Shown here: piece after piece, positions 11,207 to 28,000 of the stretch | Numbering within the stretch: position 1 is the first letter of the stretch | Layout: each line of letters begins with the position of its first letter | Assembly: GCA_951828585.1 (NCBI GenBank) | Contig: OX639991.1 | Location: 1,210,576 to 1,274,575, forward strand | Direction of reading: 5' to 3' | Length of the DNA: 64,000 nucleotides | From: Longimicrobiales bacterium | GTDB lineage: Bacteria; Gemmatimonadota; Gemmatimonadetes; Longimicrobiales; Gaopeijiaceae | Notes under the pieces: generated by a model | What the model saw: only the letters and a program-made list of their open reading frames with translations | Databases searched by the model: none | What the model was told of the DNA's origin: nothing | Position numbers and translations under genes: made by a program

Positions 11207-12358
<1,152 letters not shown>

Positions 12359-12390
12359 CATGAGCGGGGGTGCGAGCAGATCATGGGAGC

Positions 12391-13656
12391 ATGATCGTGA
12401 CACTCAGCACCGAACGGATTCGCACCGTCGACGACATCCGCGCCTTCCTCGGCGGGAGCGAGGGGGCGGACATCGCCCCCCACGACCGTGAGGCGGCATA
12501 CGCGTTCATTGAGCGGACGCTGGTCCGGTTCCGCTACCACTTCGGCCTGTCGAGGGCCGGGAAGGGCCTGGTCAGGAAGTACGCCGCCAAGGTCACCGGC
12601 TACTCGGACGCCCAGCTGACGCGGCTGATCAGGCAGCAGCGCCGCACGGGCCGCATCCGCGACCACCGGCTGCGCCCTCCTTCGCGTCCCTTCGCCACGG
12701 TCTACACGACCGCTGACGCGATACTGCTGGCGGAGGTGGACGAGGCCTTCGGCCAGCTCTCGGGACCGGCGACGAAGAGGATCCTGTGGCGCATGTACCA
12801 TGTCTTCGGCGACAAGCGCTTCGAGCGCCTGGCGGGGATTTCGAACGGCCACATCTACAACCTGCGTGCCCGCCGGGCGTACCGGCGTGCCCGGACCACG
12901 TACCGCGCGACGCGGGGCTCGTCGTCGCCGATCGGGCAGCGGCGCAGGCCCCGGCCGGAGGGCCGCCCGGGCTTCGTGCGGGTCGACACCGTGCACAGCG
13001 GCGACCGCGACGGCGAGAAGGGGGCCTACGTGATCAACATGGTCGACGAAGTGACGCAGTACCAACAACTTGCGTCGGTTCGGCGGATCACCGAGCAGTT
13101 CATGGTCCCCGTGCTCGAGGAGCTCGTCGGCGCGTTCCCCTTCCGCGTCCTGGCCTTCCATTCCGACAACGGGTCGGAGTACATCAACCACCGGGTCGCG
13201 GAGATGCTGAACAAGCTGCACGTCGAAGAGTTCACGAAGTCGCGGCCCCGGCGCTCGAACGACAACGCGCTGGTCGAGTCCAAGAACGGCAACGTCGTAC
13301 GCCGGTGGCTGGGGCGCAGCCACATCCCGGAGTCTCTGGCACCGGATGCCGACGCGTTCCTGCGCGACCATCTCTCGCCCTTTCTCAACCATCACCGCAC
13401 CTGCCTCTTCGCGGTCGAGGTCGAGGATGCGAACGGGCACCGCCGCAGGAAGTACCCCCAGGAGCTGGTCATGACCCCGTACGAAAAGCTCGGATCGCTG
13501 CCCGGGGCCGACGGCTTTCTGAAGCCCGGCATCACCTTCGAGCAGATTGACGCCGCGGCGCACGCCGTGGACAGCCTCAAGGCGGGCCAGGAGGTCCAGC
13601 GGGCCCGCAAGGCGCTCTTCCACCTCATCGCCAAGGCGCTGAACCCCGCAGCATGA
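12391..13656 (+). CDS. DDE (rve-type) integrase/transposase
   Basis: A protein of about 421 residues, read from the ATG at 12391. The N-terminal third is helical and helix-turn-helix-like (YSDAQLTRLIRQQRRTGRI). It is followed by a retroviral-integrase-type catalytic core with the triad in order: VRVDTVHSGDRD (Asp), LAFHSDNGSEYIN (Asp) and NALVESKNGNVVRRWLG (Glu). The C-terminal tail has PYEKLGSLPG and a basic helix. It is intact, so not an obvious pseudogene. It runs divergently from the IS110 transposase and belongs, by position and inverted repeats, to the outer element at 11075-13827. The exact IS family is not recognised with certainty. Confidence 0.85.
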   Translation: MIVTLSTERIRTVDDIRAFLGGSEGADIAPHDREAAYAFIERTLVRFRYHFGLSRAGKGLVRKYAAKVTGYSDAQLTRLIRQQRRTGRIRDHRLRPPSRPFATVYTTADAILLAEVDEAFGQLSGPATKRILWRMYHVFGDKRFERLAGISNGHIYNLRARRAYRRARTTYRATRGSSSPIGQRRRPRPEGRPGFVRVDTVHSGDRDGEKGAYVINMVDEVTQYQQLASVRRITEQFMVPVLEELVGAFPFRVLAFHSDNGSEYINHRVAEMLNKLHVEEFTKSRPRRSNDNALVESKNGNVVRRWLGRSHIPESLAPDADAFLRDHLSPFLNHHRTCLFAVEVEDANGHRRRKYPQELVMTPYEKLGSLPGADGFLKPGITFEQIDAAAHAVDSLKAGQEVQRARKALFHLIAKALNPAA

Positions 13657-13801
13657 CCGGCCCCGCCCGCCCCTCGGCTCGCTCCGCTCGCCTCGGGGCT
13701 GGCGGCCCTTGCGCCGCCCCCTCCCCCACCCCACCATCCCAACCTCCATCCACCCCTCACCATCACACCCCCCAACCTCGGCCCCTCCCCCCCGGCTCGT
13801 T

Positions 13802-13827
13802 CATGATCATGTCCGGGTTGGAAAACA
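13802..13827. repeat. Right terminal inverted repeat of the DDE element
   Basis: TCATGATCAT (13802-13811) and TTGGAAAAC (13819-13827) are the inverted counterparts of the left end at 11075-11099. The region just inside (13657-13800) is low-complexity, C-rich and gene-free, with an imperfect GC stem near 13668-13700. Confidence 0.5.
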
Positions 13828-13846
13828 CTGCCGTTCCGATATCCTA
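13819..13846 (+). promoter_or_regulatory. Possible outward promoter at the element's right end
   Basis: TTGGAA (13819-13824), a 16-bp spacer and TATCCT (13841-13846) form a sigma-70-like pair reading out of the mobile element into the propeller gene at 13925. The -35 would lie inside the terminal repeat. Both hexamers match consensus at four of six bases. Confidence 0.3.
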
Positions 13847-13858
13847 ACGTCTTAGGAA
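13843..13858. repeat. Small inverted repeat upstream of the propeller gene
   Basis: TCCTAA, loop CGTC, TTAGGA: a perfect 6-bp dyad overlapping the possible -10 at 13841-13846. It may be an operator or a short RNA hairpin; too short to be sure. Confidence 0.3.
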
Positions 13859-13924
13859 AATCGTGGCATGTCCACACGATACCCGGTCGACGCCAGGGCC
13901 GGGGATCACAAGGAGGGTGATCGA

Positions 13925-15103
13925 ATGCATGGTCGAAGGCTGCGCTGTTTGGGTCCGGTGACGAAACGGTGGGGCGTTCCCGCCAGCCTATGCCTCCTGA
14001 CCGCGACGGCCGGATGCGAGCGGGAGAGCCCGGAAGTCGAGGCTCCGCCCGAAGCCCCCGTCCAACTCGTCCTCGACACCGTCGCCATCATCCACAGCGA
14101 CCTGTTTCACTACGTGGGAGGCGTGGGACGGCTGGCCAGTGGCGATCTCGTGGTGATGAACTCGGGCTCGGTGGATGTGTTGCTGTTGGACGCAAGCGGC
14201 AATCAGGTCGGGACCGTCGGCCGTCTGGGAGAAGGTCCGGGCGAATTCCTGGGCGTGCTGGATATGGACACCAGGGGCGACTCGATTCTCGTCCTCGACG
14301 GGCTCAGGCGACGGGTCAATCTCTTCCATCGGGACTCGTTCGTCGCCATGTGGTCGCTCCGGGGAACCACCGGGACACCCCAGCAGGTCGGGTTCAGCTC
14401 CAGCGGAACCCCGGTGGCGACGGTCGCGAGGCGGACCGACACCGGTCAGGAGAATGCCGGGAAGGTCCTGAGAGACACGATTGAGTTCTATCGAGTGGAC
14501 CGGACGGAAGCGGCGCTGCCGACACCGATCGAAGTCCCGGGTGGCGAGCACTTCGTGTTTGAAGCGGACGGGGGGTTGGGGATGGGGGTACCGGCGTTCA
14601 GCGCGTGGGGCACGTACGACCTGACGCTGACAGGGGTGATCTTCGCGGATGCGAGGGACGGGCGCGTGGTGTCGTTCGGGTGGGATGGGCAGGCGGTGCG
14701 GACTCTGCGACCCGCTTCGCAACCGACCTCAGTTTCCGAGGCGGAGCTCGACCGGGTCCTGGAACGCAACGAGGCTGTGGCAAGCCAGCGGCCCAGCTAC
14801 TACATGGCGTTTGTGCGACAAGCGATCGAGGTCTGGGGCGAGTCGGTGCCGCGCCCTTTCTATTCCGCGGTGATCAGCGACGGGTCCGAGACGCTCATCG
14901 AACATTTCGCGCCCCGTTCGGCCGACAGTGTGGAGTGGTCCCTCCTGGGCGAGGACGGCACCACGCTCGGCACCTTCGACCTCGGCCCGACCACGGAACT
15001 CCACTCGATCCAGAACAGGGAAGTCCTCGGCGTCGGCCGCGACTCGCTGGACGTGGAGCATGTGATTGTGTTTCGGATTCGGGAGGCGGCTGGGTCCGGC
15101 TGA
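13925..15103 (+). CDS. Six-bladed beta-propeller lipoprotein
   Basis: A 392-residue lipoprotein. The start is set at ATG 13925 because AAGGAGGGTGATCGA supplies an ideal ribosome site just before it; an earlier ATG at 13868 lacks one. The signal (SLCLLTATAGC) ends in a lipobox Cys near residue 32. Propeller blades follow, with the family turn GRLGEGPGEFLGV and strands such as DLVVMNSGSVDVLLLD and VSFGWDGQAVRTL. It is the fourth protein of this family in the first 15 kb and the only one in a plus-strand position right next to the mobile element. Likely exposed in the periplasm or on the outer membrane; ligand unknown. Confidence 0.82.
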   Translation: MHGRRLRCLGPVTKRWGVPASLCLLTATAGCERESPEVEAPPEAPVQLVLDTVAIIHSDLFHYVGGVGRLASGDLVVMNSGSVDVLLLDASGNQVGTVGRLGEGPGEFLGVLDMDTRGDSILVLDGLRRRVNLFHRDSFVAMWSLRGTTGTPQQVGFSSSGTPVATVARRTDTGQENAGKVLRDTIEFYRVDRTEAALPTPIEVPGGEHFVFEADGGLGMGVPAFSAWGTYDLTLTGVIFADARDGRVVSFGWDGQAVRTLRPASQPTSVSEAELDRVLERNEAVASQRPSYYMAFVRQAIEVWGESVPRPFYSAVISDGSETLIEHFAPRSADSVEWSLLGEDGTTLGTFDLGPTTELHSIQNREVLGVGRDSLDVEHVIVFRIREAAGSG

Positions 15104-15238
15104 GTCGTCACGCGCAACACCCGCCACTTCGAGCCGACGTCTTCACACCGCCAGACGAACCCGCCTCCGCATCGCCCCCCCCAAATCTGTCCCATTTTGC
15201 CGTTGCTCCGCCCGTAGCCCGGCACCATCCTTCATGTC

Positions 15239-15541
15239 ATGAAAACCCCCGAAGCCGAAACCCGCCGCGCACTCGCCAGACTCCGCCGCGCGATCGAGAA
15301 GGCGCGCCGCGAAATCCGCGGGCTGCGCGAACTCCTCGACCGGACCGAAGCCGAGAGCTTCCCCGCGGACGACTACGCCGAGATGGACGAGCACCTGTCC
15401 GCGGTCACCGAACTCGTGGGTCGCGAGCAGGCCCGCCAGCAGGCCAAGATTCTGCGCGCCGGGGGTATCGGCGCGAACCGGCTGCGACGCTCCGCGGGGT
15501 CCTTTGGAGGGGGTTCGGGGGATGAAGGACGGCGACCTTGA
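15239..15541 (+). CDS. Small coiled-coil protein, unknown function
   Basis: A 100-residue protein dominated by charged helix (RRALARLRRAIEKARREIRG, then ELLDRTEAESF), likely a short coiled coil, with a Gly/Arg-rich tail. No Shine-Dalgarno is obvious before the ATG. Its TGA overlaps the TTG start of the next gene (TTGA), so translational coupling to the amidohydrolase is plausible. That overlap is the main support for it being real; no family recognised. Confidence 0.5.
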   Translation: MKTPEAETRRALARLRRAIEKARREIRGLRELLDRTEAESFPADDYAEMDEHLSAVTELVGREQARQQAKILRAGGIGANRLRRSAGSFGGGSGDEGRRP

Positions 15542-17292
15542 AGCGGCGCGATTTCGTCACCGACGGCAGCAAAGCCGCACTCGTCGGCCTTGCAGGGCTC
15601 ACGGGCCTCGGGCCGAGACCCGCGACGCCCCCGGTCACGGGAACCGGCACCGCAGCCCGCCTTGCCCGCGCGCCCGGAGGCCCCGCCCCCGCCTCCCGCA
15701 CCGACCTCGTCATCCGCCACGGCACCCTCATCGACGGCACGGGAGCCCCTCCGCGCACCGGCGACATCGCCATCACCGGCGACCGCATCGGCGCCATCGG
15801 CCGGGTCCCCGCCAGCGGCACCGTCGAGATCGACGCCCGGGGCATGGCCGTCGCCCCCGGCTTCATCGACATCCACTCCCACGCCGACCTGTCCCTCCTG
15901 GTCAATCCACGCGCCGAGAGCCGCGTGCGGCAGGGCGTCACCCTGGAGGTCGTCGGACAGGACGGCAGCTCGATCGGCCCCTGGAGCGACGGCGCCTTCG
16001 AGTCCACGCGCGACCGCTACCGCCGCGGCTACAACGTCGAGATCGATTTCCGCGACATCGGCGGCTTCCTCGACCGCATCGACCGGGAGCGCCCCGCCGT
16101 GTCGGTGGCCTCGATGATCGGCCACGGGACCGTGCGCGGCTACGTGATCGGCGGCGCCGACCGCCCCGCCACCGACGCCGAGCTGGCCCGGATGCGTGCC
16201 TTGGTGCGGGCCGGCCTCGCCGCCGGCGCGGTCGGCCTCTCCACCGGCCTCGAGTACACCCCCGGCAGCTTCGCCACCCGGGACGAACTGGTCGCCCTGG
16301 CCACCGAGCTGCGCGGGACGCCGTACCCCTACGCGTCACACATGCGCAACGAGGACGACCGCCTCCTCGCCGCCGTCGAAGAGGCGCTGCACGTGGGCCT
16401 AATGGCCGGCGTCCCTGTCCAGATCTCGCACCTCAAGGCGCAGGGACAGCGCAACTACTGGAAGGCCGAAGCCGCCCTCGCGGCGATCGAGGCCGCACGG
16501 GCCAGCGGGGTGGATGCGCACTTTGACCGCTATCCCTACGTGGCGTACGCGACGGGCCTCTCGAACCTCTTTCCGGCCTCGGTGAGGGCCGGCGGCACGG
16601 CCCGCTTCCTCGAACGCCTCGCCAATCCGGACACGGCCCCGGCCCTGGAGCGCGCCTGCCGCGACAAGATCGCGCTGCTGGGCTCCTGGGACGCGGTCCA
16701 GGTCACGCGGATCGGCGGCGCGAACGCCTATGCACGGGGGCGGCGGCTCGGCGAGCTGGCCGCCGAACGCGGCGAGGACCCGTACGAACTGACCGTGCGG
16801 CTCCTGCGCGAAGCGGGCGGCAGCGTCGGGATGATAGGATTCGGCATGTCCGAGGAGAACACGGAGCGCATCCTGGCGCATCCGCTGGGAATGGTGTGCT
16901 CGGACGGGGGGGCCTACGCACCGTACGGGCCGCTGTCGGGATCGTCGCCGCATCCGCGCGGTTATGGGAGCTTTCCGCGGCTGCTGGGTCATTACGTTCG
17001 CGACCGGAAGTCAATGGCGCTGGAGGCCGCCGTACACAAGATCTCGGGGCTGCCCGCGCGGAAGCTCGGGCTGGAGGACCGGGGCGTGCTCCGGGTGGGG
17101 GCCGCCGCGGATGTGGTGGTGTTCGATCCCGGCAGCGTGGCCGACCGGGCTACGTTCGAGGATCCTCACCAGTACCCGGTGGGGATCGGGCATGTGGTCG
17201 TGGGGGGTGTGCACACGATCCGTGACGGAGAGCAGACGGGGCGGATGGGGGGGCGGGGGGTGCGGGGGGTGGGCGTGGGGGTGGGGCGGTAG
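15538..17292 (+). CDS. Tat-exported N-acyl-D-amino-acid deacylase-like amidohydrolase
   Basis: A 584-residue enzyme starting at TTG 15538. The N-terminus KRRDFVTDGSKAALVGLAGL is a twin-arginine signal. The body has DLVIRHGTLIDGTGAPP, the metal-binding FIDIHSHADLSLL, YASHMRNEDD and HLKAQGQ (metal and substrate residues), then MVCSDGGAYAPYG near the C-terminal metal Asp. It ends in the usual amidohydrolase beta sandwich (GLEDRGVLRVGAAADVVVFD) and a Gly/Val/Arg-rich tail. D-aminoacylase family members deacylate N-acyl-D-amino acids; the true substrate here is inferred. It resembles unit 2 of the double enzyme at 6534-9815. Tat export suits a metal enzyme folded before export. Confidence 0.86.
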   Translation: MKRRDFVTDGSKAALVGLAGLTGLGPRPATPPVTGTGTAARLARAPGGPAPASRTDLVIRHGTLIDGTGAPPRTGDIAITGDRIGAIGRVPASGTVEIDARGMAVAPGFIDIHSHADLSLLVNPRAESRVRQGVTLEVVGQDGSSIGPWSDGAFESTRDRYRRGYNVEIDFRDIGGFLDRIDRERPAVSVASMIGHGTVRGYVIGGADRPATDAELARMRALVRAGLAAGAVGLSTGLEYTPGSFATRDELVALATELRGTPYPYASHMRNEDDRLLAAVEEALHVGLMAGVPVQISHLKAQGQRNYWKAEAALAAIEAARASGVDAHFDRYPYVAYATGLSNLFPASVRAGGTARFLERLANPDTAPALERACRDKIALLGSWDAVQVTRIGGANAYARGRRLGELAAERGEDPYELTVRLLREAGGSVGMIGFGMSEENTERILAHPLGMVCSDGGAYAPYGPLSGSSPHPRGYGSFPRLLGHYVRDRKSMALEAAVHKISGLPARKLGLEDRGVLRVGAAADVVVFDPGSVADRATFEDPHQYPVGIGHVVVGGVHTIRDGEQTGRMGGRGVRGVGVGVGR

Positions 17293-17385
17293 GGTGGCGT
17301 GAACGGCGAAATGGTGTCGCGAATCGCGGGTGCGCGCCCGCCGTCTCCCGACGCTTCGGGCCAGGCGAGCGAGGGGACTCCTGTC

Positions 17386-18645
17386 ATGCCGACGATTCTG
17401 GAGGAACTGGCCGAGACGTTCCGGGAATGGGGCGGCGATGTGCCCGGCGAGAGCGCTGATCCCGCCAATTCCACCGTACCCAACGACGCGGTCGAAGGAC
17501 GCGACGACGCCGTTTTCAGGAAAGCCCGCGCCGTACTTCAACCTGGCACTCTCGGGTTCTCGGCTCCCGTGGCCGACCACGCCGCACTCTGCGAGTCCAT
17601 GGCGGGCCGCGCAGCAGCGGCCCTGGCCGACGACTCCGCTTTCGACGCCCTCGCCATGCGCATCCACGCCGCCCAACGCGCGGCCAACCCCATTCTGCGC
17701 CGCTTCTGGGACGCCTCGCGCGGGGACCCGCCCGCCGACTGGCGTGACATCCCCCCCGTCCCCGCGACCGCCTTCAGGGACATCCCGATCGTATCCGGCA
17801 CGCCCGAGGTGGTCTTCCGCACCAGCGGGACGACGGGTGGCGGCGGTCGTCGCGGTGAGCACCACGTCGTTAGCCTCGACCTGTACCGTGCGGCCGCGCG
17901 CGCCAACTACTACCGTCACCTCATGAGCGGTGCCGCGCAGCTACGAATGCTGTCCCTCATCCCCAGCCCCCACAACGCCCCCGATTCCTCGCTCTCCACC
18001 ATGGCCGGCTGCATCGCGGCAGAGCCCGAAGTTACCAGCGCGGTGTGGGCTTTCCGCCCCGAAGACGGTGCGGACATCGACGCTGTTCGAAACGCCGCTG
18101 CGACGGAGCACCCCGTCCTCGTCCTGACCACCGCCTTCGCCCTCGTCCACCTCCTCGACGCGCTGGGTGACGAGCGCATCCAACTACCCGCGGGCTCCCG
18201 CATGATGGAAACCGGAGGCTTCAAGGGCCGCGCGGCCGAGGTGGACCGGGCCACGCTCTACGGCCGCGCCGAACACGCCCTGAACATACCCCGGTCCTGC
18301 ATCATCAACGAGTACGGCATGACCGAACTCCTGTCACAGGCATACGACGGCGTCGCGGGCACCGCCCCGCCCCTCCCCTCCCGCGTCCATCGCTTCCCGC
18401 CCTGGGTGCGCACACGCGCCCTCGACCCCGCCACCCTCGCCCCCCTCCCCCCCGGCGAACCCGGCCTCCTCGCCCACTTCGACCTGGCCAACGCGGGTTC
18501 CGTCTGCCACATCCTCACCGAAGACTTCGGCCACACCACCCGAGACGGCGGAGTGCGTGTGTTGGGGCGGGCCAAAGGCGCCACCCCACGAGGCTGCTCC
18601 CTGGCGGCGGAGTCTTTCCTGCGAGCAACCGGACCAGCCCGGTGA
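17386..18645 (+). CDS. luxE: LuxE-like acyl-protein synthetase
   Basis: A 419-residue protein of the LuxE acyl-protein synthetase family. The start is placed at ATG 17386 because upstream codons add a Pro/Ser-rich extension not expected in the family. The ATP/acyl-adenylate loop is VVFRTSGTTGGGGRRG (near residue 145). Later motifs are MMETGGFKGR and IINEYGMTELLSQAYDG, which match the adenylate-forming fold. LuxE activates a fatty acid with ATP and passes the acyl group to a Cys for the reductase LuxC. A luxC-like gene follows 85 bp downstream, so the two likely form a fatty acid reductase producing aldehyde. Neither luciferase (luxAB) nor luxD is nearby. Confidence 0.82.
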   Translation: MPTILEELAETFREWGGDVPGESADPANSTVPNDAVEGRDDAVFRKARAVLQPGTLGFSAPVADHAALCESMAGRAAAALADDSAFDALAMRIHAAQRAANPILRRFWDASRGDPPADWRDIPPVPATAFRDIPIVSGTPEVVFRTSGTTGGGGRRGEHHVVSLDLYRAAARANYYRHLMSGAAQLRMLSLIPSPHNAPDSSLSTMAGCIAAEPEVTSAVWAFRPEDGADIDAVRNAAATEHPVLVLTTAFALVHLLDALGDERIQLPAGSRMMETGGFKGRAAEVDRATLYGRAEHALNIPRSCIINEYGMTELLSQAYDGVAGTAPPLPSRVHRFPPWVRTRALDPATLAPLPPGEPGLLAHFDLANAGSVCHILTEDFGHTTRDGGVRVLGRAKGATPRGCSLAAESFLRATGPAR

Positions 18646-18730
18646 GGGCCTGTGATGACCTGCGCCGACTCCCGTCCCCCGCTGTTGCGGTCGGCCCGAT
18701 GATCCCGCCCCAATCCTCCGGCCGACCCCG

Positions 18731-20224
18731 ATGACCGCGCCGCGCCTGTTCCGAATCGACGCCTGGCACTTCCCACCGGAGATACCCGCACCGACCGCAT
18801 TCGAGCACATCGATGCGGGTGCTCTCGGAGTGCGTTACCCAGAGTCCGACCACGATTTAGCGCAACACCTGACATCCTCGCTGCGCAACGCGCGAGCCAC
18901 ACTGGCCGCCATGAGCACCGACGAGATGATCACCCTGCTGGGCTCCGTCGGCGAACACTTCCCCCACACCCTCGACGACGACGCCATCGCCGAAGTCGCC
19001 GCCAACAGCGGCCTCTCCCGCGCCATGACCCGGGAAACCCTGGCCGGAATGGCCGTATCATGGAACACCCGCGCCCTCGACCGCCTCGTCCGGGCCGAAT
19101 TCCCCGACCCGCGCGTCCTCGACGGATTCGTCAACGAAACCGATCGCGCCGTGCGCGCGGCCGCGCCGGGAATCACCCTCCACTTCGGCGCGGGTTCCGT
19201 ACCCGGCGTCACCGTCACCTCCATGATCCGGGCGCTGCTTGTCCGATCACCCGTGCTCGTCAAGCCCGGCGCCGGCGACGCGGCCCTCACCACGCGCTTT
19301 GCACGGGAGCTTCACCGCGCGGACCCCCGTCTCGCGGCCGCCGTCGCCGTCCACTACTGGCCCGGCGGCGCACCCGCATGGCAAGCCTGGGAACGGGAAC
19401 TCCTCACCCGGGCCGACCAGGTCGTCATCTACGGCGGCAACGACACCATTGAGTCCATCCGCGCACGCGCCCCCGCCTCAACGCGGCTCATCGAGCACCC
19501 CCACCGCCTCGGAGTCGCCATCGTGGATCCGCACGCGGCCCCCGGCGCGGCCGCCGAAGCCGCAAGAGCCATCTCCCTCTTCGACCAGAAGGGTTGCGTC
19601 AGCACCCACCTCATCCTGCTGCTGGGGGACCGCACCGAGGCGCATCGCTGGTGCGGCCGCCTGGCCGAGCACCTTACGCGAACCGCCGCGACCCTGCCCG
19701 CCGGATCCCTCACACCCGGCGAACTGTCCTCGCTACGCCAACTCAGGGGCCGCTTTGCCATGCGCGGAGCCGCATCCGGAGATGTCGAGATCCGGTCCCC
19801 CGAAAGTACGGACTGGACCGTGGTCCTCGCTCCTCCCGAACAGTTCGAGCCGGTGGGCGGACGCACGGCCTGGGTCGTGCCGATTTCCGACCGGGAAGGC
19901 TGCCTCGAGATCCTCGCCCCCCTGTCTCCGGTCCTCCAGACGGTGGGCCTGGTGGGCGTGGGCGATGAGACGGTGGTGCCGAGGTGCGTTTGCGAGAAGC
20001 AGCCGGCTGGGAAGGCGGGGATCGGCGAAGGTCGCGCGGTGGAGCGGGTGGCTGATCGAACCGGCATCGGGAGCTTTGCCGAGGGACTGGCCGCACTCGG
20101 CGTCACCCGCATCGTACCACTGGATGAAGTCCCTTTCCCGCAACCCGAATGGCTCCACGACGGAAGCCGCCCGCTCGGGGAACTCGTTCGCTGGTGCGAA
20201 CTTCGCTCACCCGAACGGGCTTAG
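18731..20224 (+). CDS. luxC: LuxC-like acyl reductase
   Basis: A 497-residue member of the LuxC / aldehyde-dehydrogenase-like family. It shows the NADPH-side fold elements HFGAGSVPGVTVTSM and LVKPGAGDAALTTRFAREL, then QVVIYGGNDTIESI. The likely catalytic thiol is Cys289 in FDQKGCVSTHL, which lines up in position with the acylated Cys of known LuxC. The C-terminus has VGVGDETVVPRCVCEKQ. It would reduce the acyl group delivered by LuxE to a fatty aldehyde. The same strand order luxE-luxC and close spacing support one operon. The role without luciferase is open: aldehyde for wax esters, lipid repair or secondary metabolism. Confidence 0.82.
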   Translation: MTAPRLFRIDAWHFPPEIPAPTAFEHIDAGALGVRYPESDHDLAQHLTSSLRNARATLAAMSTDEMITLLGSVGEHFPHTLDDDAIAEVAANSGLSRAMTRETLAGMAVSWNTRALDRLVRAEFPDPRVLDGFVNETDRAVRAAAPGITLHFGAGSVPGVTVTSMIRALLVRSPVLVKPGAGDAALTTRFARELHRADPRLAAAVAVHYWPGGAPAWQAWERELLTRADQVVIYGGNDTIESIRARAPASTRLIEHPHRLGVAIVDPHAAPGAAAEAARAISLFDQKGCVSTHLILLLGDRTEAHRWCGRLAEHLTRTAATLPAGSLTPGELSSLRQLRGRFAMRGAASGDVEIRSPESTDWTVVLAPPEQFEPVGGRTAWVVPISDREGCLEILAPLSPVLQTVGLVGVGDETVVPRCVCEKQPAGKAGIGEGRAVERVADRTGIGSFAEGLAALGVTRIVPLDEVPFPQPEWLHDGSRPLGELVRWCELRSPERA

Positions 20225-20231
20225 TGTCAGC

Positions 20232-20423
20232 TCAGTCGTTCGGTTCGGCCTTGGCCCGCCACATGACCAACTGACGTATCCCGTCAGGATTCTCCTCCAC
20301 ACGTACTGTCATAGTGTCGCCGGCACGGATCCCGCAACTCTCCCGCATTGAGAGCGGAATCGTCATTCGTCCGCCGGTGCCAACAGTCACATCACCGTAG
20401 AAGAGCGTTCGGTAGATTGCCAC
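20232..20423 (-). CDS. SpoVT/AbrB-like DNA-binding protein
   Basis: A 63-residue protein read from GTG 20423, chosen because GAGGAG sits 5 bp ahead; a longer frame to 20486 adds a basic tail with no ribosome site. The core GRMTIPLSMRESCGIRAGD with TMTVRVEENPDG is the swapped-hairpin SpoVT/AbrB fold seen in AbrB regulators and MazE-type antitoxins. It converges on luxC, ending 8 bp away. No toxin gene (PIN or MazF type) is adjacent, so it may be a stand-alone regulator or an orphan antitoxin. Confidence 0.7.
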   Translation of the reverse strand: MAIYRTLFYGDVTVGTGGRMTIPLSMRESCGIRAGDTMTVRVEENPDGIRQLVMWRAKAEPND

Positions 20424-20822
20424 TTCGACTCCTCTGTGCTTGGGCCCCTCCTGAGGTGACCCGCGACGCGATCCATCTGCGTCCACGGATCCCTTTCCGA
20501 CCCCTTCGGCATCGTCCGATAGGGCCCGTCACGATTCGTAAGCTGCAATATAGGCAAAGCACCCCCTCAAGGTTCCACGCAGTTCCCTCAGGGACGCCGG
20601 ATAGGGCGCCGCCGAGGGACTCGTTCCTGTCATCAGGCCTTGATTTGATCGCATGGAGCGGCATCCCGGGGGCCGCGCCGACGGACAGGCACCGGTGGCG
20701 ATCCGCATCCAGTGGGTGAACATATGACCGCCGCATAGCGTACATTTGCCGGTGGCGAGCGGCGGCATTCGCTTCGAGAATCCCGCTCCGCCGAAGACCC
20801 ACATCGACCACAGGAACAATCC
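20424..20822. other. Gene-free intergenic region upstream of the ABC exporter
   Basis: About 400 bp between the divergent AbrB-like gene and the ABC transporter. No open frame with coding character is seen. A weak sigma-70-like pair facing right, TGAACA (about 20716) and TACATT (about 20740), is the only promoter candidate. The tract CCTCAGGGAC...CGAGGGAC near 20585-20620 is an imperfect repeat. Confidence 0.35.
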
Positions 20823-21764
20823 ATGACGGAAGCAGCGGTACGCCTCGCCGGTGTGACGAAGAGCTTCGGCTCCCACACGGCGGTCTCCGACTTCGACCTC
20901 GAGATACCCCGCGGGGCCATCCTCGGGCTGCTCGGGCCGAACGGCTCGGGGAAGACCACGTCCATCCGCATGATGATGGCCATCCTGGTCCCGGACCGCG
21001 GCACCGTCGAGCTCTTCGGCGGCTTCCCCGACTTCGCGCGCCGCAGCCGGGTGGGGTATCTGCCCGAGGAACGGGGCGTCTACGAGAAGATGAAGGTGCT
21101 GGAGCAGCTCGTCTTCCTGGGAGAGATCAGGGGGATGGACCGGAAGATCGTGCGCAAGCGGGCGATGGAATGGCTGGAGCGGCTCGATCTCGGCGAGTGG
21201 GCGGCCAAGAAGGTCCAGACGCTCTCGAAGGGCATGCAGCAGAAGGTACAGTTCATCGGCACCGTGCTCCACAAGCCCGATCTGCTCATCCTCGACGAAC
21301 CGTTCAGCGGTCTGGACCCGATCAACCAGGAAGTGCTGGAGTCGATCGTTCTTGAACAGCGGGAACAGGGCGCCACCATCCTCTTCTCCACCCACCTCAT
21401 GGAGCAGGCGGAACGGCTCTGCGAGCGGGTCTGCCTGATCTCGAAGTCCCGCAAGGTCCTGGACGGGAACCTGAAGGCGATCAAGCGCCGTGAACGCTCC
21501 AACGTGGTCGCGGTCGAATTCGAGGGTGACGACCGCTGGCTCACCCGGCTGGGCGTCACGGAAATCGAGAGGGTGGGCTACGCGCACCACCTCACCCTGA
21601 ACCCCCGCGTCGACAGCGACCGCATCCTCGCGGCCGCCGTGGCGGAAGGAGTCAGCCTCCGGCGCTTCGAGCTCCTGGAACCCACGCTGCGCGAAATCTT
21701 CGTCAGGCACGCGGGCGACCCGGCCCCCGAACCGGCCCTGAAGGCCGCGGGAGGTGCGCGATGA
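20823..21764 (+). CDS. ABC exporter ATP-binding protein (NatA-like)
   Basis: A 313-residue ATPase with all nucleotide-binding motifs: Walker A LLGPNGSGKTTS (near residue 40), Q-loop-type region VGYLPEERGVYEKM, signature LSKGMQQKVQ, Walker B LLILDEPFSGLDP and switch His in LFSTHLMEQAE. The C-terminal tail beyond residue 220 is the DUF4162-type extension of the NatA group. It overlaps the permease gene by 4 bp (ATGA), so the two are one exporter. NatA/NatB are known as sodium exporters, but related systems move other substrates; the cargo is not readable here. Confidence 0.85.
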   Translation: MTEAAVRLAGVTKSFGSHTAVSDFDLEIPRGAILGLLGPNGSGKTTSIRMMMAILVPDRGTVELFGGFPDFARRSRVGYLPEERGVYEKMKVLEQLVFLGEIRGMDRKIVRKRAMEWLERLDLGEWAAKKVQTLSKGMQQKVQFIGTVLHKPDLLILDEPFSGLDPINQEVLESIVLEQREQGATILFSTHLMEQAERLCERVCLISKSRKVLDGNLKAIKRRERSNVVAVEFEGDDRWLTRLGVTEIERVGYAHHLTLNPRVDSDRILAAAVAEGVSLRRFELLEPTLREIFVRHAGDPAPEPALKAAGGAR

Positions 21765-23020
21765 ATACGGCATGGAAGCAGGTATGGGCCGTGCTGAGGC
21801 GCGAGTACGTCGAGCGCGTGAAGACCAAGGGGTTCGTGATTTCGACGATCGCGATACCCGTGCTGATGCTCGGCATGATCGGGCTGAGCGCTTTCATGGC
21901 CGTGCGGGCCGAGCAATCGCAGCGTCAGCTGGCGCTCGTCGACTTCACGGGGGAGGTCGGGGAAGAGGTCGCTCGCCGCATGGGAGCGGCCGGATACGAC
22001 CTGGAGATCGTGGACTCGGGGATCGGGCTGGAAGAGCTGGACCGCCGCGTTCTCGAAGAAGAGATCGAAGCCTACATCGTCCTCGACGAGCTGACCCTGC
22101 AGGAGGGGGCGTTCGCGTACCGGAGCAGGGAATCCCCGGGCCGGATTCGCGGTGCGCTGATGGAGAGCATCGTCGTGGAGACGGTTCTGGAGTTGCGGCT
22201 GTCCCTTACCGAAAACACGGAAGGAGTGCGCGAGCTGCTGGGTGGCAGCCACCTGAGCTTCGAGCGACTCGGCGAAGAGGTGTCCGAAGTGGAAGAGGTG
22301 TCCGGGATCGTGACGGGGGTGGCCGGCGCCCTCATCCTGTACATGTCGATGTTGCTGTACGGGCAGTTCGTCCTGCGTTCCGTCCTGGACGAGAAGCGCA
22401 ACCGGGTGGTCGAGGTGGTCATCTCGGCGCTGACGCCCGGACGCCTCATGCTGGGCAAGATTCTCGGCGTTGGCTCGATGGGCATGACCCAGCTCGGGAT
22501 CTGGGCGGCGTGCGCGGCGCTGATCGGTCTTGTTGGCGTTCCCATGCTGGCGGCCAACCTTCCCGAGGCGGACCTGAGCCAGATCGTCGAGGTCCTTCCA
22601 GGGGTGGGGGCGCTGGTCCTCCTCCTCGTCTACTTCATCCTGGGGTTTTTCCTCTACTCGTCGCTTTTCGCCGCGGTAGGTGCGATGTGCAACACGGAGG
22701 AGGAAGCGCAACAGGCGAATTTCCCGGTCATGATGCTCATCATCATCCCCTTCATGCTGCAGATCTTCTCGCTTGAAGGGAGTGCCTTCGCCTGGATGGA
22801 CTGGGCCGCCGTCTTCCCCTTCTTCTCCCCGATCATGATGTTCCCGCGGGCCGTCTCCGGGTCGGTCGAATGGTGGATGGTCGGGCTGTCGCTGTTCTTC
22901 ATGGTGATCGCGGTGGGGGCGACGGCGTGGGTGGCGGGACGGATCTACCGCGTGGGGATCCTGATGCAGGGGAAGCGGCCGACGCTGAGAGAGCTGGTGC
23001 GCTGGGTCAGGGAGGCGTAG
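21761..23020 (+). CDS. ABC-2 type exporter permease (NatB-like)
   Basis: A 419-residue membrane protein. An N-terminal hydrophobic segment after EYVERVKTKGFVISTI is followed by a large extracytoplasmic domain (about residues 50-180). Then come about five membrane helices, with RNRVVEVVISALTPGRLMLG as the cytoplasmic coupling loop and later helices around LILYMSMLLYGQFV and LVYFILGFFLYSSLF. This is the ABC-2 / NatB layout. It starts inside the stop region of the ATPase gene (4-bp overlap). No further subunit is seen. Confidence 0.83.
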   Translation: MNTAWKQVWAVLRREYVERVKTKGFVISTIAIPVLMLGMIGLSAFMAVRAEQSQRQLALVDFTGEVGEEVARRMGAAGYDLEIVDSGIGLEELDRRVLEEEIEAYIVLDELTLQEGAFAYRSRESPGRIRGALMESIVVETVLELRLSLTENTEGVRELLGGSHLSFERLGEEVSEVEEVSGIVTGVAGALILYMSMLLYGQFVLRSVLDEKRNRVVEVVISALTPGRLMLGKILGVGSMGMTQLGIWAACAALIGLVGVPMLAANLPEADLSQIVEVLPGVGALVLLLVYFILGFFLYSSLFAAVGAMCNTEEEAQQANFPVMMLIIIPFMLQIFSLEGSAFAWMDWAAVFPFFSPIMMFPRAVSGSVEWWMVGLSLFFMVIAVGATAWVAGRIYRVGILMQGKRPTLRELVRWVREA

Positions 23021-23044
23021 GGACTGGCCTGGCGGTCCAGCCGG

Positions 23045-23782
23045 TCAATCCCCCACGAACACCTCCACGAACCTCGTGAGCAGGCGGGTCGTCTCGGGGG
23101 TCTCTTCCAGCTTGGCCACGATCTCCTCGTAGGTCTCGCCGGACACTTCGGTCAGGTACCGGGGATAGGCCGACAGGCGCATGAGGATACCCGACACGTC
23201 CAGCTCGGGATGAAACTGCGTGCAGTACACGGGCGCGTCCTCGAAGCGGTAGGCCTGGTTGGCCACCCTGGACGACGACGCGAGCAGAGTGGCGCGCGGC
23301 GGCAGCGTCTTCACGAGGTCTTCGTGGCCCATCTGCGCCTTGAAGCTCGCGCTCAGGTGCCCGAAGACCGGGTCGTCGCGTCCGGCGGCCGTAAGTTCGA
23401 GGGGGTGCGTTCCGATCTCGGCGCGGCTCCGATCGTTCACGACTTCGCCGCCCATGGCCGCGGCCATCGCCTGAAACCCCCAGCACGACGCAAAGGCGGG
23501 GACGCCGGACGCGTACACGCTGCGCAGCGAATCGAGGGCCATCGGAAGCCAGGCCCCTCCGGTGGCGGCCGAGTAGGCGCCGCTGCCCCCCATGAGGACC
23601 AGGTCCACGCCTTCCAGGTCCTTGTGCGTGAGCAGTCTGTCGAGAAGGTCGAAGATCTCGATGCGGACGGTGCGGGGAGAGAAGGCGCGCTCGAAGGAGG
23701 CGATCTCGTGGCCGCTCATGGGGTCGTCGGGGTCGCGAACCTGAAGGAGGAGGGAGCGGAGGGGTCGGGTGGTGGCGGTCAT
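23045..23782 (-). CDS. Class I glutamine amidotransferase-like protein
   Basis: A 245-residue stand-alone GATase. The nucleophile elbow is VPAFASCWGFQAMA (Cys near residue 100). The His-Glu of the triad are in VYCTQFHPELDVSG. The early strand VDLVLMGGSGAYSA is in the usual position for this fold. Similar single-domain enzymes act as glutamine amidotransferases or gamma-glutamyl hydrolases in various pathways; the partner or substrate is not clear. It lies 55 bp downstream of a small unknown gene on the same strand, probably one transcript. Confidence 0.8.
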   Translation of the reverse strand: MTATTRPLRSLLLQVRDPDDPMSGHEIASFERAFSPRTVRIEIFDLLDRLLTHKDLEGVDLVLMGGSGAYSAATGGAWLPMALDSLRSVYASGVPAFASCWGFQAMAAAMGGEVVNDRSRAEIGTHPLELTAAGRDDPVFGHLSASFKAQMGHEDLVKTLPPRATLLASSSRVANQAYRFEDAPVYCTQFHPELDVSGILMRLSAYPRYLTEVSGETYEEIVAKLEETPETTRLLTRFVEVFVGD

Positions 23783-23837
23783 GGCTCGGCGCGGGTCACT
23801 GCAACGGAACGGGGCGAAAGGGCTGGCGCGGCCAGCT

Positions 23838-24146
23838 TCAGGTTACCGACCGCAGCATGGCCACGAGATTGTAGCGGTTCAGCGCCTTGGCCGCGCGCAA
23901 CGCGTCCTGGCGAGTGGGCTCGATGAAGATCACGGCCGTGCGCGCGGGTTCCTCGTGGTCGGCCCGGTCGGTCGGCACGAAGCAGACCCGCGCCCGGCAC
24001 GAGTCGGGATCGCGCGGATCCTCGACGAATTCGAGGTGGGCATCCCAGAACCTGCCCTCGTGCGTGAACGTGCTCAGGTGGATGTGCAGGGACGCATCGG
24101 TGCGTTCGTCTTCCGGCGGCGCGGAACCGCCCGGGGGAGTGGACAT
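23838..24146 (-). CDS. Small conserved-looking protein of unknown function
   Basis: A 102-residue protein read from ATG 24146; the frame extends upstream with an Arg-rich stretch unlikely to be coding. A beta strand run (ASLHIHLSTFTHEGRFWDAH) leads to RARVCFVPTDRADHEEPART and AVIFIEPTRQDALRAAKALN, which suggests a small alpha/beta fold. No signal peptide. It is likely co-transcribed with the amidotransferase. No family recognised. Confidence 0.6.
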   Translation of the reverse strand: MSTPPGGSAPPEDERTDASLHIHLSTFTHEGRFWDAHLEFVEDPRDPDSCRARVCFVPTDRADHEEPARTAVIFIEPTRQDALRAAKALNRYNLVAMLRSVT

Positions 24147-24303
24147 TGGCACCATGAGCAGTAGTGTAGCGCAGCCGGGGCGCCGCCGCATCCTGCGACG
24201 CGGCCCCGGTGGCGGCTCCACCGATCGTCCGGGTGCCCGCGGACGCTTTGCCCGTCGAAGGTGTCCCTTAATCCGGGCACCCTGTCAGGCGCCGCCCTTC
24301 TCG

Positions 24304-24332
24304 TTGACATCGCCGGAAGCGATTCCTACCTT
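24304..24332 (+). promoter_or_regulatory. Sigma-70-type promoter for the act operon
   Basis: A consensus -35 TTGACA (24304-24309), an ideal 17-bp spacer and a weaker -10 TACCTT (24327-24332) lie 85 bp before actA in the divergent intergenic region. Confidence 0.5.
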
Positions 24333-24416
24333 CGTTCGGCTTTGCCACGCAACTCCTCACTCCCATCAACCCTCAACTCGACCCGCTGTCCGGGTCCGCG
24401 ATTGCCTACCGCTCGA

Positions 24417-24980
24417 ATGAAAAGGTTGTGGCTGGCGACCCTGGTGGGAGCTCTCACGGTCCTCCTTGCCGTCGTCCTCATCGGCTTTCGGCAGGCCCCC
24501 GAAGGGGATGCACCCCCCGAGGTGGCCGACGCGGAGGCGCAGTCCCAGCCGATCCTGTTTCCGCACGACACGCACGCCGGCCAGTTCACGATTCCCTGCC
24601 AGTACTGCCACTTCTCGGCGGAACGGTCGGTGGACGCGGGGATTCCCCCGATGGCGACGTGCATGGGATGTCACCAGGAGGGGATCGTTGGAGGGCGGAC
24701 CGATCAGGCGCAGGCGGAGATCGCGAAGGTGCGCGAGTACTACGAGTCGGGGACGCCGATTCCGTGGAAGCGGATCTACAAGGTGCGCGATCACGTCAAG
24801 TTTCCCCACATGCGCCACATCGCGGCCGGCGTGACCTGCCAGACCTGCCACGGCGAGGTGCAGGAGATGGGGGTGCTCGGAGAGATGGCGCCCGAGGCGG
24901 GGGACCTGAGAATGGGCTGGTGCGTCTCCTGTCATATCGAGCGCGGGGCCTCCCGCGACTGCACGGTATGTCACTACTGA
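24417..24980 (+). CDS. actA: Alternative complex III pentaheme cytochrome c subunit ActA
   Basis: A 187-residue protein starting at ATG 24417, where one N-terminal membrane anchor (LATLVGALTVLLAVVLIGF) begins at once. The periplasmic part has five C-x-x-C-H heme sites in order: CQYCH, CMGCH, CQTCH, CVSCH, CTVCH. This is the pentaheme ActA of alternative complex III, which passes electrons from the quinol-oxidising core. It is first gene of actABCDEF. Extra His residues (FPHDTHAGQF, FPHMRHIAAG) are likely distal heme ligands. Confidence 0.93.
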   Translation: MKRLWLATLVGALTVLLAVVLIGFRQAPEGDAPPEVADAEAQSQPILFPHDTHAGQFTIPCQYCHFSAERSVDAGIPPMATCMGCHQEGIVGGRTDQAQAEIAKVREYYESGTPIPWKRIYKVRDHVKFPHMRHIAAGVTCQTCHGEVQEMGVLGEMAPEAGDLRMGWCVSCHIERGASRDCTVCHY

Positions 24981-25041
24981 CGGCGTGCGGGTGCAGCCCG
25001 CGAACCGTGACCGGGGTCGCGAGCCCCGTGGAGGAGCGCAC

Positions 25042-28000
25042 ATGAGCGACGGCCTCAAGCGGCGCGACTTCCTCAAGGTGGTCGGTGTGGGCGGCGCGGG
25101 CGCCACGGTGGCCGGATGCTCGACCGACAAGGTGGAGCGGCTGATCCCCTACGTGGTGCCGCCAGAGGAGATCACCCCGGGTGTGGCGACCTGGTACGCG
25201 TCGACCTGCGGCGAGTGCACGGCCGGTTGCGGGATCCGGGTGCGGACCCGCGAGGGCCGGGCGGTGATGATCGAGGGCAACCCGGATCACCCCGTGTCGC
25301 GGGGCGGTGTGTGTTCGCGGGGCGTGTCGGCGTTGCAGGGACTCTATAATCCCGACCGCGTGGCCACGCCGCTGCGCGCGGGCGCCGACGGCTTCGAGGC
25401 CATCAGCTGGGACGAGGCGCTGGCCATGCTGGCGGAGAGGTTGGGGGCAGGGGGGCGTTCGCTCTTCCTGACCGGGCGCAAGGGCACCACCGAGGCGACG
25501 CTGCTGAACGGCTTCGTGGAGGCGGTGGGGGGGGACCGCGTCATCCATGATCCGCTGGACGATCCCGCGCTTCGCCGGGCCGTCGAGATCGCCTTCGGGG
25601 TGGCCACCCTGCCCCGCTACGACATCGCCGCGGCCGACTTCCTGGTGTCGTTCGGTGCCGACTTCCTCGAAACGTGGGTTTCGCCGGTGCGCTTCGCGGC
25701 CGACTTCGCCGAGATGCACGCGGTGGACCACGGCGAAAAGGGCACGTTCGTCTTCGTCGGGCCGCGCCTGTCGCTGACGGGGCAGAACGCCGACGAGTGG
25801 ATCCCCGCGCGGGCCGGCTCCGAGGCGCACATCGCCCTGGCGCTCGCCGGAGAGCTGGTGCGGCGCGGCGGAGACGCCGGCCCGTACTCCGACATGGTTT
25901 CCCGGTACACACTCGAGGACGCCGCGCAGGAGGCCGGAATCGAGGCCGAGGCGCTGGCGGCACTGGCCGACCGATTCGCGGAGGGCTCGGCGCTGGCGCT
26001 CGGGCCCGGTTTTGCGGGACACCACGGTGGCGCCACCGCGGCCAATCTGGCCGTTCTGATTCTGAACGTGGCGGCGGAGAGCCTGGGACGGACTCTGCAC
26101 ATCGACGCGGTTCCCGAGACCGAGGCTTCCTCGTACGGGGCGATGGCAAACGCGATCACGGCCATGAACTCGGGCACCTATGGCGTGGCGGTCGTTTCCG
26201 GCACGAATCCCGCGTATTCACTTCCGACCGGGTCCGGCTTCGGCGAAGCCTTCAGGGCGGTCCCCTTCAAGGTGGCCTTCGCAACTGCTCTCGACGAAAC
26301 CTCGGCGATGGCCGACCTGGTGCTGCCCGACGCCCACCCCCTGGAGTCCTGGGGCGACAACGACGCCACGCCCGGCGCGTACGCGGTCCGGCAGCCGGTC
26401 ACGCGGCCCCTCCCCATGTACGACTCGCGCCCCATGAGCGACGTGCTCCTCGCCACGGGCCGGACCCTGGGCCACGACGGCTTCGGCGCGGCCACCTTCC
26501 ACGAATACCTCCGCACCGCCAACGCCGCGTGGCTGACGGAGTTCGGCGCCGATATCGGAATCACCGGCGACCCGGACACGCTCTGGCGCGAGCTGCTGCG
26601 CAACGGCTCGTCCTCGTATTCGGTCGAGCTGCCGCAGGTCACCGCCCTGCTGGCCCCCACCACGGCCGTGGACTTCAACCCCCCCACCCTGCGGGGCGAC
26701 GGCGACTTCACCCTGGTCGTCCACCCCTCCCCCCGTTTCGGCGACGGCACCCACTCGAACCGGCCCTGGCTGCAGGAACTGCCCGACCCGGTCTCGAAGG
26801 TGATGTGGCAGTCCTGGGTGGAGATGAACCCGGCCACCGCCGAGCGTCTGGATCTCCGTACCGGACACATCGTCAACGTCGCCACGGAACAGGGCACGGT
26901 GGAGCTTCGCGTCTGGGCATACCCCGGAATACGCGAGGACACCCTGGCGATCGCGATGGGCGGCGGCCACACCGACTACGGACGGTTCGCCAACGGCAAC
27001 GGCGTGAACCCCATGGAGCTGCTCCCGGTGGCGGTCGACGGCACCTCGGGCACACTGGCGCTGGTCTCCACGCACGCAACCATCGACGCGACGGGCGCCT
27101 GGCGCCGGCTCGCCTCGACCGAGGGTTCGAGCGACCAGGACGACCGGAACGTGACGCCGGCGGTGGCGCTCTCCGCGCTCGGCCACGCCGCGGTGGCGGA
27201 ATCGCAAGATGGCCACGGCCAGGTCCGCGAGCTGAACGAGGCCGGCGGCTTCCAGAGTGTCGAGACCGAGGGCCGCGCCGAGGATTTCCCGCTGCCGGGT
27301 TCGGACTTCGGGGAGTACGGCGAGGACCATCCGCGCTGGGCGATGGCGATCGACCTGGACAAGTGCAATGGCTGCGGTGCGTGCGTCACCGCCTGCCAGG
27401 CCGAGAACAACATTCCGTGGGTGGGCGAGAACCAGACCCTCATGGGGCGCGAGATGCACTGGCTGCGCCTGGAGCGCTACTACGAGACGGTCGACGCGTC
27501 GCACTCGGGCACGCTGGACATCCGTTTCCTGCCGATGCTCTGCCAGCACTGCAACAACGCCCCGTGCGAGCCGGTCTGCCCCGTCTTCGCGGCGTACCAC
27601 ACGCCCGACGGGCTCAATGCGCAGGCGTACAATCGCTGTGTGGGGACCCGCTACTGCGCCAACAACTGCCCGTACAAGGTCCGAGTCTTCAACTGGTACC
27701 GGTACACCTCGGAGAACATCCCCGAGCCGATGAACTGGCAGTTCAACCCCGACGTGACCGTGCGCGACAACGGCGTCATGGAGAAGTGCAGCTTCTGCGT
27801 GCAGCGGATCCGCGAGGCCGGGAACCGGGCGGCTCTGGAGGGGCGGGAGGTTCACGACGGCGAGGTCCGGCCCGCCTGCCAGACCGTCTGCCCCGCGGAC
27901 GTCATCACCTTCGGGAACATCAAGGACGCGACCTCGCGCGTGAAGGCGCTGGCCGAGGACGAGCGCACCTACCGGGTGCTGGACGCCTTCATCAACACGC

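Follow-up and report, generated by a model that had tools for sequence, protein, structure and literature searches.

Adjacent luxE-like and luxC-like genes on a 64,000-nt stretch of contig OX639991.1 (GCA_951828585.1; Longimicrobiales, Gemmatimonadota), hereafter called the window, probably encode an ATP- and NAD(P)H-dependent reductase of a small heteroaromatic carboxylate rather than of a fatty acid. In this genome, the substrate could be 7-carboxy-7-deazaguanine (CDG), a reading to which we assign a probability of about 0.4 and in which the two proteins would open an alternative route to preQ1. A broader proposal, which is slightly more tentative, is that LuxE-LuxC replaces QueC and QueF by an aldehyde route throughout the order, and that a plasmid-borne sister branch found under thiamin riboswitches performs the same chemistry on oxidised thiamin pyrimidine; it is possible that one enzyme pair serves both the queuosine and the thiamin pathways.

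The chemistry is proposed by homology with the luminous LuxE and LuxC. LuxE would use ATP to convert a carboxylic acid into an acyl-AMP and would be loaded with the acyl group on Cys404, whereupon LuxC would accept this group on Cys289 and reduce it to the aldehyde using NAD(P)H. The acid would be CDG delivered by QueE, the aldehyde would be 7-formyl-7-deazaguanine, and a separate aminotransferase would then aminate it to preQ1, which would feed Tgt and QueA, thereby bypassing QueC and QueF; of this scheme, we infer the substrate, the aldehyde as product and the enzyme responsible for the amination. The known route, as outlined in an excerpt of PMC5372724, involves QueD, QueE, QueC, QueF and TGT, with QueC and QueF leading from CDG through preQ0 to preQ1. 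The route proposed here has the same start and the same end, but it would employ unrelated enzymes and would pass through an acyl-thioester, an aldehyde and an amination.

The identity of the pair is supported by profile, structural and alignment data. Both genes are intact and adjacent in the list of open frames of the window, with luxE upstream of luxC, and the two proteins score above the curated Pfam cut-offs (LuxE, 50 bits against PF04443, cut-off 24.9; LuxC, 185.5 bits against PF05893, cut-off 21). The luxE frame begins at 17299, the ATG at 17386 being a plausible start. By sequence, the Photobacterium LuxC-LuxE complex 7xc6 is the sole PDB match of LuxC and the sole strong one of LuxE (130 bits in a profile search). 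The AlphaFold model of LuxC (pLDDT 90.4) adopts an aldehyde dehydrogenase (ALDH)-type fold whose top match is 7xc6_A (TMq 0.81), while that of LuxE (pLDDT 79.8, with low confidence for residues 1-61) adopts an ANL/PaaK-type fold. Among the matches listed for the LuxE model, most of the nearest folds are aryl-acid ligases; PaaK2 aligns with it over 306 residues (Z 24.8, root-mean-square deviation 3.0), the phenazine biosynthesis structure 3hgv, which we take to be EhpF, reaches Z 21.2, and 7xc6_E is not among the 50 matches listed, which are filled by other ANL ligases. Regarding the catalytic residues, LuxE Cys404 is kept in 26/26 and 30/30 lineage rows and throughout the broad LuxE set of 45 rows, and LuxC Cys289 in 26/26 and 32/32 lineage rows as well as in 6/6 outgroup rows. 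An apparent loss of the cysteine in some LuxC, coming from a motif scan, was rejected, since the alignment shows a cysteine in all of them.

The genome of the window (G000; one contig of 4,472,315 bases, 99.5% complete) holds a single LuxE and a single LuxC copy. A luciferase elsewhere in it was rejected because the luciferase family PF00296 gave no match at E<=0.001, in a search that was positive for control in 10/14 genomes; luxD was not searched for genome-wide. The preliminary description of this DNA had pictured a true neighbouring LuxE-LuxC pair in E-C order, with Cys289 kept and no luciferase, and these statements are all borne out, the alignment revealing no lost catalytic residue. Its suggestion that the pair supplies aldehyde to another pathway stands in part: a non-luminous pathway is probably fed, but the use of this aldehyde for wax esters or lipids from fatty acids finds no support in the long-chain model scores, the clade, Glu309 and the thiamin and queE operons described below.

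The link to queuosine arises from the gene order in relatives of the window and from the gene content of their genomes. In two class-mates (L079, L080), queE lies immediately 5' of luxE-luxC, with 4-bp overlaps in L080, and two Bacillota metagenome-assembled genomes (MAGs; L180, L182), whose neighbouring proteins are 93-96% identical, present the order queD-queE-luxE-luxC-class III aminotransferase. G000 itself encodes QueE (256 bits), QueA and Tgt; its best QueC match, 21.4 bits over 58 positions, was not counted as QueC, and no QueF match was obtained. Both Bacillota genomes likewise keep Tgt without QueC and without QueF. QueE (model A4, at least 200 bits) was detected in 17/18 genomes of f1 and 5/5 of f2, the two closest families, in 2/2 of f5 and in both Bacillota genomes, with another QueE type occurring in f3, and Tgt was present in 43/44 genomes. 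At E below 1e-20, QueC was found in 7/44 genomes, namely four of the five LuxE-less ones, G073 and the two of f5, and QueF in 4/50, that is, three of the five LuxE-less genomes and one NC10 genome. Considering only the Gemmatimonadota put to both tests, QueF was thus present in 0/34 LuxE-bearing and 3/5 LuxE-less genomes, and QueC in 3/34 and 4/5, respectively (Fisher p 0.001 for QueF and 0.002 for QueC, the genomes being related and the events few). When tested for QueF only, three further LuxE-bearing genomes (G033, G043, G048) and three LuxE-less ones (G024, G030, G032) gave no match below 1e-20. Weak matches to QueC (18-27 bits, mostly confined to the first ~65 positions and located in frames about 310-890 aa long) and to QueF (21-31 bits) were not counted, and we take them to be other PP-loop enzymes and GTP cyclohydrolase. 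As reported in an excerpt of PMC5372724, queuosine-salvaging bacteria are jointly devoid of queD, queE and queC. Since queE is kept here without queC, while salvagers lose both, a replacement is therefore called for.

Some further features were recorded at queuosine loci. Among the f3 genomes tested, G073 alone has a full QueC, and its queC lies together with queE and a queD-like frame (L258, 6151-7911, +), perhaps as a transferred 7-deazaguanine cluster. A divergent QueC-like gene of f5 adjoins a short-chain dehydrogenase/reductase (SDR) gene and a QueD-like gene (L266, 6051-8087). A conserved protein of ~120 aa with no Pfam match is encoded beside queE in many f1 and f2 genomes (for instance L242, 8014-8376, -), and the relative G055 also carries queG. 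No preQ1 riboswitch was found near queE or luxE in eight loci.

The position of the pair within its family was assessed with a LuxE tree of 45 rows. Luminous and other LuxE proteins fall outside at 100/99, and the remaining rows split into a clade of nine thiamin-operon rows (96/77) and its sister, the window's clade (87/74), whose 32 rows take in the window along with its order and the two lineages linked to queE. The residue preceding the YGMTE motif, LuxE 309, is Glu in 30/30 Gemmatimonadota, Gln in 2/2 Bacillota, Met in 9/9 thiamin-operon rows and Ile in the luminous row. The equivalent residue in adenylating enzymes (PheA A322) presumably belongs to the pocket. A charged side chain at this place argues against a fatty acyl substrate, and Glu or Gln would suit a polar ring better than a fatty chain.

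The sister branch was delineated through plasmid searches returning 29 records with the lineage LuxC query and 42 with the lineage LuxE query. Eight of these records (L109 being unannotated) and two NC10 contigs (L144, L161) make up ten sister loci, which represent about six lineages, because L103/L104, L106/L110 and L107/L108 are close pairs; their hosts are Azospirillum, Pantoea, Priestia, Niallia, lactobacilli and NC10. The E-then-C order occurs in 10/10 of them. A thiamin pyrophosphate (TPP) riboswitch lies upstream in 9/10, eight exceeding the Rfam gathering score and that of Priestia L105 remaining below it (49.0 against 54.3 bits), while L144 starts within the upstream gene, its upstream region being missing. 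An importer gene, either an NCS2 permease of the xanthine-permease type or an ABC importer, accompanies the pair in 8/10 loci, neither type being directly beside it in the two Pantoea loci; the binding protein of the L105 ABC importer, the one tested, matches FAMP-binding protein and THI5. An SDR gene is present in 8/10 loci, with NF006393 as best match in the three tested, and its place is taken in the two NC10 loci by a zinc alcohol dehydrogenase (ADH), the L144 copy of which is cut by the contig end. No TPP element was found in seven control loci (six with other LuxC/LuxE types, and L174).

Related arrangements were observed apart from these loci. In G048, a TPP riboswitch lies directly upstream of an NF006393-type SDR gene, away from luxE (L218, 4408-5223, -), and in G057 a TPP riboswitch, a zinc ADH gene and two tenA genes follow one another (L222, 3397-5947, -), the ADH sharing 56% identity with its counterpart in the NC10 operon; TPP-TenA-TenA loci also occur in L215, L216, L219, L220 and L221. 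On a Pseudomonas silvicola plasmid (L213, 4988-7266, +), thiamin-type luxE and luxC appear fragmented.

Several of these data weigh against CDG as the substrate of the window's pair. The queE gene of G000 lies ~160 kb from luxE-luxC, no queuosine gene was recognised beside the window's luxE-luxC, queE adjoins luxE only in L079, L080, L180 and L182, and queD together with an aminating enzyme was observed only in the operons of L180 and L182. As to the presence pattern, it amounts to few independent events, and it has exceptions: G036, the one f1 genome not counted for QueE, has LuxE yet a weak QueE match (52.7 bits), f5 keeps a divergent QueC (104-110 bits) and G073 a full one. On the phylogenetic side, the support of the clade split is moderate, and the LuxC tree, obtained by a quick search, agrees in outline, with the NC10 and Bacillota pairs unplaced. 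Finally, the nearest relatives outside the order sit in thiamin operons, and traces of thiamin genes exist within the order (G048, G057).

The main alternative to the CDG reading is a function in thiamin salvage, which could also be an additional task of these enzymes within the lineage. In that case, the acid reduced by the pair would be 4-amino-2-methylpyrimidine-5-carboxylate, an oxidised thiamin pyrimidine, or else some other acid derived from thiamin, and the resulting aldehyde would be converted by an SDR or a zinc ADH to 4-amino-5-hydroxymethyl-2-methylpyrimidine (HMP). The riboswitches of the sister operons, their NCS2 or THI5-like importers and their SDR or ADH genes all point to such a role, as do the TPP-SDR and TPP-ADH-TenA-TenA arrangements of G048 and G057 inside the order. 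Against it, no TPP element was found at ten lineage LuxE loci, nor in the window, which has no Rfam match at the gathering score and none at E<=1 in 12000-26000, and the sole TPP element of G000 lies upstream of thiC in a genome that carries both thiC and thiG. Both the lack of such an element in the window and the presence of thiC and thiG weaken the view that thiamin is the only job of the pair here. The window's LuxE, besides belonging to the other clade, differs from the thiamin-branch LuxE at residues 145, 206, 249 and 309. We regard this explanation as unlikely for the window itself.

Rather improbable, in our opinion, is the conversion of a different acid, for instance one belonging to an envelope or secreted metabolite that the nearby amidohydrolase would help to make and the ABC transporter would export (Table 1). 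In many f1 genomes, genes for these proteins are indeed found on either side of the pair, and in other bacteria LuxE/LuxC pairs are part of glycan islands (excerpts of PMC4875605 and PMC7874193). Yet the amidohydrolase and ABC genes are missing in f2, f3 and part of f1, where luxE-luxC is retained, and neither a glycan gene nor one for an acyl carrier protein (ACP) or for peptide synthesis was recognised next to the pair among the window's open reading frames (ORFs) and their profile matches. Because the neighbours come and go between genera while luxE-luxC stays, the amidohydrolase and ABC genes were dropped as a pathway. Fatty aldehyde supply, in which the reduction of long-chain acyl groups would serve the formation of wax esters, ether lipids or other lipids, appears the least probable of all and indeed very doubtful. 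In its favour are homology and a common fold with the luminous fatty acid reductase, together with the two retained cysteines, but the NCBIfam long-chain equivalog cut-offs NF052244 and NF052251 are far from being reached (LuxE, 39.4 of 550 bits; LuxC, 87.3 of 750 bits), the pair belongs to a separate clade, Glu309 stands where the luminous protein has Ile, the relatives occur in vitamin or base contexts, and no lipid gene context was seen beside the pair, wax synthase not having been searched for.

Table 1. Positions in the window of the luxE-luxC pair, its key residues and the neighbouring genes.
Feature	Position	Strand	Remarks
Small ORF	15239-15541	+	Often upstream in f1, not always
Amidohydrolase	15538-17292	+	PF07969, 98.4 bits; often upstream in f1, not always
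luxE-like gene	17386-18645	+	419 aa; acid-activating (ANL fold) protein; PF04443
LuxE TSGT loop, residues 146-149	17821-17832	+	Expected ATP-binding loop; invariant (26/26, 30/30)
LuxE E309 and YGMTE (310-314)	18310-18327	+	Putative substrate-pocket position and adenylation motif, from alignment
LuxE Cys404	18595-18597	+	Predicted acyl acceptor; aligned with 7xc6 LuxE; invariant
luxC-like gene	18731-20224	+	497 aa; acyl-thioester reductase (ALDH fold); PF05893
LuxC Cys289	19595-19597	+	Catalytic; aligned with 7xc6 LuxC; invariant
AbrB/MazE-like small protein	20232-20486	-	PF04014, 21.4 bits, under cut-off 24.7; often downstream of luxC in f1
ABC ATPase	20823-21764	+	Often downstream in f1, not always
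ABC-2 permease	21761-23020	+	Often downstream in f1, not always

EhpF and EhpG, which reduce a ring carboxylate in phenazine (D-alanylgriseoluteic acid) biosynthesis, resemble the window's pair in their gene pairing and through the match of 3hgv to the LuxE model, but they belong to secondary metabolism, have another gene context and were not found by the LuxE sequence search. Their genes are described in an excerpt of PMC11278526 as adjacent AMP-binding and aldehyde dehydrogenase-family genes. With the luminous LuxC-LuxE of 7xc6, the pair shares both families, both catalytic cysteines and the LuxC fold, and it differs from it by the lack of luciferase, the E-C order, the separate clade, the scores far under the long-chain models and the charged residue at LuxE 309. 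That luxE and luxC can be present without a luciferase is already known: according to excerpts of PMC7874193 and PMC4875605, they occur in flagellin glycosylation islands of Aeromonas and Enterobacteriaceae, which also carry ACP, FabG and glycosyltransferase genes, none of which was recognised beside the window's pair, and for which the authors suggest a lipid-like glycan part. In addition, a LuxE homologue is mentioned for Riemerella in an excerpt of PMC4772473. Among the papers listed by searches of the open-licence PMC literature, no title or displayed abstract links LuxE, LuxC or acyl-CoA reductase to thiamin, a TPP riboswitch or 7-deazaguanine.

If the reading of the pair as a reductase of ring acids, with CDG as its substrate here, is true, it would assign a role to a widespread gene pair whose present annotation is fatty acid-CoA ligase and acyl-CoA reductase (bioluminescence), thereby correcting a default lipid annotation. 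It would also account for the way in which bacteria that have queE but neither queC nor queF could make queuosine. Carboxylic acid reduction would moreover constitute a new way into thiamin salvage, one that lactobacilli and plant-associated bacteria carry on plasmids, and a two-protein reductase for ring acids might become available.

As regards the distribution of the pair, LuxE is present in 85/98 related genomes and LuxC-family proteins in 89/98, the latter count including weak ALDH-like matches. Adjacency was therefore scored with strong LuxC matches only, those under about 90 bits being dropped. Both genes are found in 53/58 f1 and 12/12 f2 genomes, that is, in 65/70 genomes of the two closest families, and in 65/65 of these they are adjacent, on one strand and in E-C order. 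They are likewise adjacent in 2/2 f5 genomes. In f3, both occur in 17/21 genomes, adjacent in 0 and on different contigs in 11, and the five genomes of f4, f6 and f7 have neither LuxE nor LuxC. Public contigs sharing this gene order are labelled as Gemmatimonadota, partly as Longimicrobiales, and no viral or phage carrier of window-type LuxE was found; at some GC-rich loci (e.g. L106, L113, L119), annotated coordinates or profile matches were used. Three contigs labelled as Gammaproteobacteria and coming from sponge-type bins (L139, L146, L158) have a Gemmatimonadota-like gene order and are probably mislabelled MAGs.

Around the pair, part of f1 shows the small ORF, the amidohydrolase, luxE, luxC, the ABC ATPase and the ABC-2 permease in that order, and the counterpart of the AbrB/MazE-like protein in the relative L116 matches TIGR01439 (31.8). 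Upstream of this region, the window holds two transposase-like ORFs named by eye (11207-12334, -, and 12370-13656, +). Lastly, a c-di-GMP-I-GGC riboswitch lies near luxE of an f3 genome (L064, 11951-12044, -).

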